A DNA stretch of 64,000 nt from NCBI GenBank assembly GCA_026552855.1, contig JAPMTX010000143.1, positions 1 through 64,000 on the forward strand, written 5' to 3'. This DNA is from Candidatus Methanoperedens sp. GTDB taxonomy: Archaea; Halobacteriota; Methanosarcinia; Methanosarcinales; Methanoperedenaceae. Under the pieces are notes generated by a model. That model had not been told where the DNA came from, ran no database searches, and worked only from the letters and a program-made list of their open reading frames with translations. Shown here in pieces: positions 6,282-55,376 of the stretch. Position 1 is the first letter of the stretch, and each line of letters begins with the position of its first letter. The position numbers and the translations under genes are program-made.

Positions 6282-6298
6282 CGATATGATTGTTAAAT

Positions 6299-6539
6299 AC
6301 CGCAAAGTTCGCAAAGAACGCAAAGCATAGCAGCAAAGTCCTTTCAAACTTTGCGCTCTTTGAGTTCTGATGTGGAAAAATCTGGATACAAACAACGAAC
6401 TCGTACGAACTGATACGAACTCAATCATCCAGAGTTCGTACGAGTTCGTATTAGTTCGTTGTTAATGTACATTCTGTTGCACTTTTTCATTGTCATCTAT
6501 GAACACCGTTCATAGCCGACTTTGCAGTGTTTAGTCTTA
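6299..6539. repeat. Nested palindromic repeat cassette, copy 1
   Basis: A composite of short periodic arrays arranged as inverted repeats. The left arm is a 9-bp-period array (CGCAAAGTT, CGCAAAGAA, CGCAAAGCA from 6301) that can pair with AAACTTTGCGCTCTTTGAG (6347-6365). Next comes a 10-bp-period array ACGAACTCGT, ACGAACTGAT, ACGAACTC within 6391-6422, inverted as GTTCGT units to 6463 around a 9-base loop. A third block has ATGAACACCGTTCAT (6509-6523) and ends CTTTGCAGTG (6530-6539), an imperfect outer partner of ACCGCAAAG. The same parts recur at 25223-25335 and 54439-54775. No long ORF with protein character was seen. Confidence 0.85.
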
Positions 6540-25190: not shown

Positions 25191-25222
25191 ATAGAAGGGT
25201 TTTTGAATATATAATATTCAAA

Positions 25223-25335
25223 CACCGCAAAGGGCGCAAAGTACGATTTCTATAATCTTTGCGCCCTTTGCGTTCTGGTGTGAAAGACTTTTCATCGTCA
25301 TCTATGAACCACAGTTCATGGCTGACTTTGCGGTG
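25223..25335. repeat. Nested palindromic repeat cassette, copy 2 (short form)
   Basis: CGCAAAGGGCGCAAAG (25226-25241) pairs perfectly over 16 bases with 25257-25272, leaving a 15-base loop. Then ATGAACCACAGTTCAT (25304-25319) and an outer CTTTGCGGTG (25326-25335) that mirrors CACCGCAAAG (25223-25232). So one hairpin and a smaller one are enclosed by an outer 10-bp inverted repeat. The middle array (ACGAACT) of the other copies is missing. It lies between the convergent pyrK and flavoprotein genes. Confidence 0.8.
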
Positions 25336-52236: not shown

Positions 52237-52887
52237 ATGAAGGTAAAAATTTGCGGTATCAAGACCGAGCGCGACCTTGACATGGCACTGATCGCCGGGG
52301 CAGATGCTGTAGGGTTTATTACCGAGGTGCCTGTGGATTCACCGCGGAAGATAAGTCTCCCGGAAGCATCACGATTGATATCAAAAGTGCCGGTGTTCGT
52401 GGCATCGGTGCTTGTTATCATGCCTGAAAATGCAGAGCAGGCGATACGTATGGTACGGACTGCGAGACCGACTGCTGTGCAGGTCCATAATGCACTTGGG
52501 ATCCAGGAATTGAAGAAGATCAAGGATTCGGGGGTAATGCTCATTAAAACGATCCCTGTAGCCCAGAACGCTGATATTAAAACCCTTGTGAAACAGGTAA
52601 GAGAGCTGCATGGAATCGCTGATGCTGTCCTTCTGGATACCGCGCTGGGCGGGAAAACAGGCGGGACCGGAGTGCCACATAACTGGGAGATAAGCTCGGA
52701 GATCGTTCTCAGCTCCGGCGTGCCCGTGATACTGGCAGGCGGGCTCTCCCCTGAGAATGTCAGCGATGCCGTAAGGAGCGTTCGACCTTACGCCGTCGAT
52801 ACCGCATCAGGCGTTGAGAGCGAAGGGAGAAAGGACGAAAAGAAAGTGATGGCTTTTGTCAGAAATGCGAGGACGCATGAGATTTGA
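52237..52887 (+). CDS. trpF: Phosphoribosylanthranilate isomerase
   Basis: 216 residues from the ATG at 52237. TIM-barrel motifs: KVKICGIKTERDLDMALIAG with the catalytic Cys, AVQVHNALGIQELKKI, AVLLDTALGGKTGGTGVPHN with the catalytic Asp and phosphate loop, ILAGGLSPENVSDAV, and AVDTASGVES. It opens the ring of phosphoribosylanthranilate. The stop overlaps the trpE start by 11 bases. Confidence 0.95.
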   Translation: MKVKICGIKTERDLDMALIAGADAVGFITEVPVDSPRKISLPEASRLISKVPVFVASVLVIMPENAEQAIRMVRTARPTAVQVHNALGIQELKKIKDSGVMLIKTIPVAQNADIKTLVKQVRELHGIADAVLLDTALGGKTGGTGVPHNWEISSEIVLSSGVPVILAGGLSPENVSDAVRSVRPYAVDTASGVESEGRKDEKKVMAFVRNARTHEI

Positions 52888-54412
52888 TATCGATGAGAAG
52901 AAGTTCCTGAGCCTTGCAAAAGAGAAGCCTGTTATAATCCAGTTGATGGCAAAGGTGGGGGCATGCTGCACGCCTCTTGAACTTTATGCCTCTCTTGATA
53001 AAAAGTGCGCTTACCTTCTTGAATCGGTTGAGAAAGAGAAAAAGCATGCGCGGTTCTCTTTCGTGGGCGCTGATCCGGATGCGACTGTCACTGTCAAGAA
53101 TAGAACTGTAACCCTTGATTATACGCAGAGAACAAACCTGATAGGATTTATCGAATCATCGCTCTCGAAAATCTGCGATACGGGCGACGTGGGTGATAGA
53201 AGGGTGGGCAAACTCAAATCAGGCTTTGATACCATGGATGCCATCCGTTCGGTTTTCGCAGCTTCTGGCGTGAAGTTCATCGGAAAGGGCTTTGACAGGC
53301 AGACGTTCCTTGGGGGAGCTATCGGATTTTGCGCCTACGATATGGTGTACGACTGCTGGCTTGATATCCCCGCTAAAAAGACCCGTACTCCTGAGGCGCA
53401 GTTTGCGCTCACTACAAAGACCGTTGTTTTTGATCACTTGACAGATGAGACGTACGTGGTCATGACGCCGTTAGTGCTGGACGGAGATGATGCAAAAGAT
53501 ACGTACCGTACTGCGCTGGCGGATGCAGAGAAACTTGTATCAGCGGTGGAATCGGCAAAACCGCTTGCTGTGCGGAAGAACAGACCTGAGCAGATAACGT
53601 GCAATATGGAGAAAACAGAGTATGAAGACGCTGTCAGGAGAGCAAAAAAACACATAATCGACGGGGATATCTTCCAGGTAGTGCTCTCGCGCAGGTACGA
53701 GGTAACAACAGACCAGACTCCGCTTGAGCTGTACACTGCCCTGCGCAGCGTCAATCCGAGCCCTTACATGTACCTTTTTGAATTCAACGGGACAAGCATC
53801 ATAGGCGCAAGCCCTGAGACCCTGCTCTCAGTCCATAACCGGAAGGTCATAATCAACCCTATCGCAGGCACATGCCCGCGCGGGAAGACGCTGCAAGAGG
53901 ATGAGGAATTCGCAAAAGAGATGCTGGGGAGCGAGAAAGAGCGGGCTGAGCATGTGATGCTCGTTGACCTGGGGCGCAACGACGTGCGCATGGTCTCACA
54001 GGGCGGGACTGTTAAGGTCGATGATTTCATGTCTGTTCTGAAGTACTCGCATGTGCAGCATATAGAGAGCACAGTATCAGGCATGCTCCGCGACGGGTGC
54101 GACCAGTTCGATGCAACGCGCGCAATATTCCCTGCAGGCACGCTCTCGGGTGCGCCCAAGATAAGAGCCATGGAGATAATAAACGACCTTGAAAAAGACG
54201 CAAGGGGCATATACGGCGGGGGCGTGGGATACTATTCCTGGAACGGGGATGCGGATTTCGCCATCGTGATAAGGACGATAATCAAGAACGGCAGGAAGGC
54301 GATAGTGCAGGCAGGCGCGGGGATCGTGGCGGACTCTGACCCGGAGTATGAGTACAACGAGACCGAGCGCAAGATGGCGGCGATGATAAAGGCGATAGGA
54401 GGGGGGGCATGA
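52877..54412 (+). CDS. trpE: Anthranilate synthase component I
   Basis: 511 residues from the ATG at 52877. Converts chorismate to anthranilate with TrpG. Chorismate-binding motifs: GDIFQVVLSRRYEV, SPYMYLFEFNGTSIIGASPE, INPIAGTCPRGKT, EKERAEHVMLVDLGRNDV, PAGTLSGAPKIRAMEII, and IYGGGVGYYSWNGDADFAIV. The feedback region (LLES near residue 50) is present. The next gene in the pathway, trpG, is separated by the 390-base repeat insertion, unlike the usual tight coupling. Confidence 0.96.
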   Translation: MRFDIDEKKFLSLAKEKPVIIQLMAKVGACCTPLELYASLDKKCAYLLESVEKEKKHARFSFVGADPDATVTVKNRTVTLDYTQRTNLIGFIESSLSKICDTGDVGDRRVGKLKSGFDTMDAIRSVFAASGVKFIGKGFDRQTFLGGAIGFCAYDMVYDCWLDIPAKKTRTPEAQFALTTKTVVFDHLTDETYVVMTPLVLDGDDAKDTYRTALADAEKLVSAVESAKPLAVRKNRPEQITCNMEKTEYEDAVRRAKKHIIDGDIFQVVLSRRYEVTTDQTPLELYTALRSVNPSPYMYLFEFNGTSIIGASPETLLSVHNRKVIINPIAGTCPRGKTLQEDEEFAKEMLGSEKERAEHVMLVDLGRNDVRMVSQGGTVKVDDFMSVLKYSHVQHIESTVSGMLRDGCDQFDATRAIFPAGTLSGAPKIRAMEIINDLEKDARGIYGGGVGYYSWNGDADFAIVIRTIIKNGRKAIVQAGAGIVADSDPEYEYNETERKMAAMIKAIGGGA

Positions 54413-54438
54413 GGGTATTGATTGGAGAAAATAACGAA

Positions 54439-54775
54439 CCGCAGATAAACGCAGATGAACGCAGATGCATTCTCACAACGAATTACATCAAAACAACCCA
54501 CCGCAAAGGACGTAAAGAGCGCAAAGGAGTGCAGCAGGAACCTTTGCGCTCTGGTGTGGATAACAGATATTCTATTAACAACGAACTCGTACGAACTGAT
54601 ACGAACTCAAACTATTCAGAGTTCGTACGAGTTCGTATCAGTTCGTTGTTGATGTCCATTTTGTCGTTCTCTTTGCGTCCTCTGCGCTCTTTGCGGTTGG
54701 ATGTATTTTCCACTCCGGAGCGGGCGATAAGGGCACTGCATGGAGTATCTGCGTTTATCTGCGTTCATCTGCGGC
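54439..54775. repeat. Nested palindromic repeat cassette, copy 3 (full form), inside the trp operon
   Basis: Three concentric inverted repeats. Outer: CCGCAGATAAACGCAGATGA... (54439-54468) against the inverse at 54747-54774, in units of CGCAGATNAA with 10-bp period. Middle: CGCAAAGGA-CGTAAAGAG-CGCAAAGGA (54502-54528, 9-bp period) against 54671-54696, with its own extra partner (54542-54556). Inner: three ACGAACT units at 10-bp period (54577-54608) against 54619-54650 around a 10-base loop. It interrupts trpE-trpG. A 132-codon ORF through it is an artefact. Confidence 0.9.
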
Positions 54776-54803
54776 TAATTTCAATCAAAGTTGCTGGAGG
54801 AGT

Positions 54804-55376
54804 ATGAGAATCTTATTCGTTAACAACAAGGATTCTTTTGTCTGGAATCTTGTAGACTACGTATCCATTTTTGAGCCTGATACTGTTGTGGTTCCTAACA
54901 CCATCCCGCTGAAAGAGGTTGAGAGTATTAACCCCGATGCCATAGTGATATCCCCTGGTCCCGGTCATCCTGCAAACCCGAAGGACATCGGAAGCTGCCT
55001 CGATATCATCAGGGAATCGACCGTGCCGCTCCTTGGAATATGTCTGGGTCACCAGGCGATAGGCGTGGCTTTCGGCGGCGATGTTAGCCATTCGCCCTCA
55101 GGACCCGTGCACGGGAAGACCGCGCTTATCAACCATAATGGCAACAGCATATACCAGGGCTTGCCCAATCCCCTTGTCGGAGGGCGGTACCATTCTCTAG
55201 CTATAACAAAGCTGCCGCGCGAGCTTGAGGTCACCGCGAGGACGCAGGACGGCATAATAATGGGAGTGAAACATAAGCAGAGACCGATATTCGGGCTGCA
55301 GTTCCACCCCGAGTCTGTGCTTACGCCGGAGGGGTTGGGGATAATTGAGAATTTTCTGAGGATGGCACATTTATAA
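54804..55376 (+). CDS. trpG: Anthranilate synthase component II (glutamine amidotransferase)
   Basis: 190 residues. Type I amidotransferase triad: Cys in LLGICLGHQAIGVAFGG, His and Glu in GLQFHPESVLTPEG. SPGPGHPANPKDIGSC and GPVHGKTALINHNGNSIYQG are typical. It feeds ammonia to TrpE. A good ribosome-binding site (GGAGGAG) is directly before the ATG, probably to restart translation after the inserted repeat. The 3' end overlaps the convergent membrane-protein gene by 56 bases. Confidence 0.96.
   Translation: MRILFVNNKDSFVWNLVDYVSIFEPDTVVVPNTIPLKEVESINPDAIVISPGPGHPANPKDIGSCLDIIRESTVPLLGICLGHQAIGVAFGGDVSHSPSGPVHGKTALINHNGNSIYQGLPNPLVGGRYHSLAITKLPRELEVTARTQDGIIMGVKHKQRPIFGLQFHPESVLTPEGLGIIENFLRMAHL

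Follow-up and report, generated by a model that had tools for sequence, protein, structure and literature searches.

Several described systems resemble the locus reported here, which lies between the trpE and trpG genes of an archaeon. Rickettsia palindromic elements (RPEs) are dispersed, translatable palindromic repeats that occur in frame inside open reading frames (ORFs) (review PMC10969869). The repeats examined herein are likewise palindromic and present in many genomic copies. They also lie in frame within a U32 peptidase (L159), FlpD-type subunits (L227, L252), and one TrpG (L059), although by crude gene calls the sites of the repeat termed family A are otherwise mostly intergenic or bridging. 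However, RPEs extend existing proteins, whereas the main pattern in Methanoperedens is a new cistron between coupled genes. The organism also differs, several families are nested, and the two systems are likened by description.

Prokaryotic MITEs such as Chunjie, reported from a Geobacter operon according to the same review (PMC10969869), are short dispersed palindromic elements inserted inside an operon, as is the present cassette. Unlike MITEs, the cassette has no clearly established target-site duplication, terminal inverted repeat, or transposase. Borg tandem repeats are also associated with Methanoperedens and also keep reading frames inside ORFs. They are described (PMC9879509) as perfect head-to-tail repeats of extrachromosomal Borgs that host genomes are said to lack almost entirely. 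In contrast, the host chromosome carries the repeats considered here, which are dispersed palindromes, and the passages that describe the Borg repeats do not mention bridge cistrons.

A fourth point of comparison is termination-reinitiation coupling, which occurs at ATGA overlaps in archaea (PMC6728339). In Haloferax and E. coli, little of it is left once the spacing reaches ~20 nt, and pairs encoding heteromeric complexes are enriched for it (PMC10666635). The junctions described below share this geometry, the archaeal setting, and the association with heteromeric-complex genes. Known coupled pairs are directly adjacent, whereas here an ORF built from repeats lies between the two genes and overlaps both. 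We found no published description of such bridge ORFs in full-text searches of an open-licence library, which leaves out most subscription journals.

The trpE-trpG spacer

The window is the whole stretch of 64,000 nucleotides analyzed, and sequence comparison places its genome in Candidatus Methanoperedens, with relatives of the same genus available. TrpE and TrpG, like the parts of glutamate synthase, form a heteromeric-complex pair, and translation of the trpE and trpG genes is normally linked. The junction comprises the following features:

52875..54412, + strand: trpE, anthranilate synthase component I (ORF list; Pfam, NCBIfam matches)
54398..54402, + strand: GGAGG, Shine-Dalgarno (SD)-like, within the trpE 3′ end, 6 nt upstream of the bridge ORF start (sequence)
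54409..54807, + strand: bridge ORF, 132 codons plus stop (ORF list; stop counts; dinucleotide shuffles)
54439..54466, + strand: outer repeat (family A), left arm, read PQINADERR (inverted-repeat search; further genome copies)
54490..54526, + strand: middle repeat (family B), left arm (inverted-repeat search)
54574..54608, + strand: inner repeat (family C), left arm (inverted-repeat search; copies elsewhere in the genome)
54619..54653, + strand: inner repeat (family C), right arm (inverted-repeat search)
54671..54707, + strand: middle repeat (family B), right arm (inverted-repeat search)
54747..54774, + strand: outer repeat (family A), right arm, read SAFICVHLR (inverted-repeat search)
54796..54800, + strand: GGAGG, trpG SD, within the bridge ORF 3′ end (sequence)
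54804..55376, + strand: trpG, anthranilate synthase component II, glutamine amidotransferase (ORF list; Pfam, NCBIfam)

The trpE frame, which is open also from a TTG at 52856, ends with the TGA at 54410-54412. Its product matches Pfam Anth_synt_I_N and Chorismate_bind (1e-91 for the latter) as well as NCBIfam TrpE-arch (610 bits, over the cut-off), and the trpG product matches Pfam GATase and NCBIfam trpG_papA. An earlier note on this DNA had described 391 bases between the two genes, a nested palindrome of 337 of these bases, and a separate ribosome-binding site for trpG directly after it. We find the same arrangement: the gap to the trpG ATG at 54804 is exactly 391 bp, the outer arm pair spans 336 bp, and the GGAGG follows at 54796-54800.

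Absent from that note is the fact that the whole spacer is a single uninterrupted ORF. Its ATG at 54409 overlaps the trpE stop as ATGA, and its TGA at 54805-54807 overlaps the trpG ATG, again as ATGA. The stop/start distance is therefore -4 at both ends, within the range of ~-8 to +10 nt used to define coupled pairs. Within the window cassette there are no stops in the bridge frame and five and six in the other two sense frames, and dinucleotide shuffles give a probability of 0.002 that the bridge frame would be open.

Three inverted-repeat pairs are nested within one another at 54439-54774, with arms of 28 nt (family A, 93% complementary), 37 nt (family B, 76%), and 35 nt (family C, 86%). These arms are found again across the window genome, and the inner element recurs as copies of ~80-130 bp at 82-91% identity. 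A search for direct repeats at 54300-54900 recovered no family, only inverted repeats, and the perfect head-to-tail arrangement of Borg repeats is not seen in this interval.

The predicted RNA fold of the cassette reaches -172.9 kcal/mol compared to a shuffle mean of -105.8 (z -12.3), and none of 100 shuffles folds as well. Such strength, together with the variable presence of cassettes among species, might suggest a regulatory RNA that tunes trpG relative to trpE, with a hairpin that acts on transcription by attenuation or termination or that masks the trpG start. We judge this improbable. The predicted fold leaves the trpG SD unpaired, the window cassette has no T run longer than 4, and repeat content at the same site varies between species while the open frame persists. 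Furthermore, a known RNA family was rejected, since no curated Rfam family matches the cassette at the gathering score and the listed matches are sub-threshold microRNA models. If the bridge ORF is translated, ribosomes would traverse this strong hairpin.

The junction across the genus

In Methanoperedens species that lack a cassette, trpE and trpG mostly meet in a plain 4-bp ATGA overlap (gap -4), likewise within the coupled-pair range of ~-8 to +10 nt, and in many of them a similar GGAGG tract precedes the ATGA. Judging from these sequences, the 4-bp overlap is the ancestral junction in related species. Cassettes are present at this point in 11 of the 31 genomes compared, which are mostly metagenome assemblies, and they produce gaps of 40-484 nt. 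They begin at the same point or a few codons from it, and their contents differ between species. Comparison of relatives, as the earlier note had proposed, thus reveals a spacer that is not common to all, and the idea of an inserted cassette holds.

On a tree of trpE plus trpG the cassettes are scattered, with 9 Fitch steps (at least 9 changes) and ten maximal filled clades, although the exact number of gains and losses is uncertain because deep branches are weakly supported. Filled and empty sisters are joined with 96-100% support, for example in L048/L054, L039/L040, L052/(L050,L057), and L046/L042. L032 and L045 are not sisters in this tree, yet their cassettes occupy the same site and closely resemble each other. 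At silent sites their cassettes differ less (dS 0.19) than their trpG genes do (pS 0.59). Because a single ancestral cassette inherited by all would require many losses, and because the L032 and L045 cassettes are closer than their trpG genes, we disfavor that history; repeated insertion or transfer is a possible explanation that would fit the likeness better. A long target-site duplication of the whole junction was suggested by eye, but is unsupported beyond the SD/ATGA module. Flank similarity beyond this module is not significant in most cassettes. In L052, ATTGGAGGAACATGA flanks the cassette on both sides, although most of its bases are needed for function in any case.

The frame that ends at the trpG ATGA is free of stops in 9 of 10 tested cassettes (L001, L032, L033, L035, L039, L044, L045, L048, and L052), compared to 0.33 expected from dinucleotide shuffles, although these cassettes are not all independent, since homologs are among them (those of L032 and L045 align over ~220 nt). 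The other two sense frames of the open cassettes contain 1-11 stops. The tenth tested cassette, from L046, holds a relay of two overlapping ORFs, and an eleventh, from L059, forms an in-frame N-terminal extension of TrpG. The earlier suggestion that the cassette uncouples trpG does not fit an ATGA-to-ATGA frame that is open here and kept in other species despite different lengths and repeats, so to say that the cassette splits and uncouples the pair is probably wrong.

Homologous cassettes differ in length by multiples of three in the pairs compared: 9 and 3 nt between L032 and L045, 291 nt (97 codons) between L271 and L270, and 147 nt (49 codons) between L292 and L288. Cassette ORFs have dN/dS values of ~0.3-1.4, calculated from very few sites, whereas pN/pS is ~0.05-0.1 for the downstream genes. 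Because lengths keep phase while amino-acid constraint is weak, the data fit selection acting on openness and phase more than on the encoded peptide, with the caveat that the elements are partly open by design and thus bring some of this openness with them.

The same observations bear on whether the trp operon contains, in the bridge ORF, a genuine gene for a small protein. It possesses a start, a stop, an SD, and a place in the operon, and it stays open. However, a known protein domain was rejected when neither Pfam nor NCBIfam gave a match. Moreover, bridge ORFs range from 24 to 163 aa with a composition that varies by species, they are lacking in 20 of the 31 genomes, and the constraint on their amino acids is weak. 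We therefore regard such a gene as highly improbable.

Other junctions and genome-wide sites

A second, unrelated junction behaves similarly. Here the gene for the FMN domain of glutamate synthase (Glu_synthase) is separated from the GXGXG-domain gene by 4-11 nt in ten species, and fifteen others have spacers of 70-382 nt. Of these 15 spacers, 14 have an open coupling frame, compared to 1.41 expected, and a GTG overlaps the upstream stop in most. In L287, this frame has stops and the ORF ends 6 nt before the start. A loosely spaced pair, CdhC and a CooC-like gene (an unspecific label, based on gene position and on nucleotide-binding matches in Pfam), has long spacers in most species. Considered as a third positive junction, it was rejected and behaved as a negative control: an ORF spans the spacer to the downstream start in only 1 of 11 long spacers.

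Family-A sites, drawn from the window genome and from others in the genus, were grouped into 128 site clusters, with genes called by a simple and crude codon-usage caller. Co-directional gaps of at least 300 nt that carry family A are bridged in 22 of 46 cases, compared to 0 of 46 for the reverse-complemented spacer and ~1 expected from shuffles. Inspection of translations revealed that some of these bridges are real genes carrying the repeat, such as the FlpD-type genes of L227 and L252. We therefore also used a filtered set from which seven loci with ORFs resembling real or called genes were dropped. In this set, 13 of 56 spacers are open in some sense frame versus 3 of 56 antisense (p 0.013), and 1 of 30 is open in convergent or divergent contexts (p 0.029).

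Some copies reside within recognizable proteins. A U32 peptidase-family ORF (L159:3977-6358, G000:C199) includes the family-A repeat in frame (GNEPQMNADERRF). The FlpD-type (methyl-viologen-reducing hydrogenase delta) subunits at L227:911-1444 and L252:842-1372 have a repeat-encoded stretch near the C-terminus, and in both species the gene overlaps the next one as ATGA after this stretch. Family-A arrays (L140-L324) are composed of 10 bp units, with 3 units in 124 arrays, 2 in 23, and 4 in 2; at this period, additional units would tend to leave none of the three frames open. Of 31 Methanoperedens genomes searched, 30 have the three-unit pattern; a sample of 247 genomes from across the phylum yielded it in 3, one of which is the window genome.

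It is conceivable that the open frame is a by-product: if every family of palindromes has one inherently open frame and always enters in the same phase, no selection for coupling would be needed. For example, the homologous frame of the inner element is open in 7 of 11 matches elsewhere in the window genome (two rows of which represent one copy on both strands), arrays of family A nearly always have 2-3 units and thereby leave one frame open, and ~28 codons remain open downstream of family A in every context. However, openness upstream of the repeat depends on context, with a median of 17 codons in co-directional sense orientation versus 3-6 elsewhere, and composite cassettes combine several families and unique flanks, all in one phase. 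Given a one-in-three phase chance per insertion, an outcome of 23 in 25 has a probability of ~1e-9 if the insertions are independent and ~5e-5 for 9 independent events. In addition, the control pair does not show the pattern, a second nested copy of families B and C in a convergent intergenic region of the window (6290-6500) has stops in all three forward frames, and the same is true of same-family copies in the convergent gap at ~25200-25300. Thus, we consider a mere by-product unlikely.

Proposed coupling through a bridge cistron

The explanation we favor, and believe to be probable, is that palindromic repeats accumulate at coupled junctions and that selection keeps only those forming in-phase bridge cistrons that carry ribosomes from trpE to trpG. 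From the comparisons above we infer translation of the bridge, coupling as the selected trait, and insertion followed by purifying selection as the route. Specifically, three dispersed palindromic families would have become nested where the trpE stop and the trpG start overlap as ATGA. Ribosomes ending trpE may reinitiate at the overlapping ATG at 54409, translate through the palindromes and thereby melt the hairpin, stop at the TGA that overlaps the trpG ATG, and then reinitiate on trpG. The GGAGG of trpG counts against this reading to the extent that independent initiation might occur there.

Archaeal polarity has been attributed to FttA (PMC12548453), and an untranslated spacer of hundreds of bases could trigger such polarity. 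Insertions that add a stop or break the phase would either uncouple trpG or favor transcription termination by creating a long untranslated stretch, and would presumably be lost. An in-phase bridge would avoid both the loss of reinitiation and FttA-dependent polarity.

These junctions offer evidence of a natural-experiment kind for selection on translational coupling in an archaeal genus that is hard to culture, in which the many insertions into overlaps appear to be kept only in a translatable phase. They also carry a caution, since a long spacer between genes for complex subunits need not signal lost coupling, and they suggest how mobile repeats might turn into translated ORFs between genes. 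We speculate, with considerable doubt, that dispersed translatable palindromes serve Methanoperedens as recurrent bridge cistrons during genus-wide genome growth, where new translated ORFs between coupled subunit genes might tune the ratio of subunits and could give rise to new genes.
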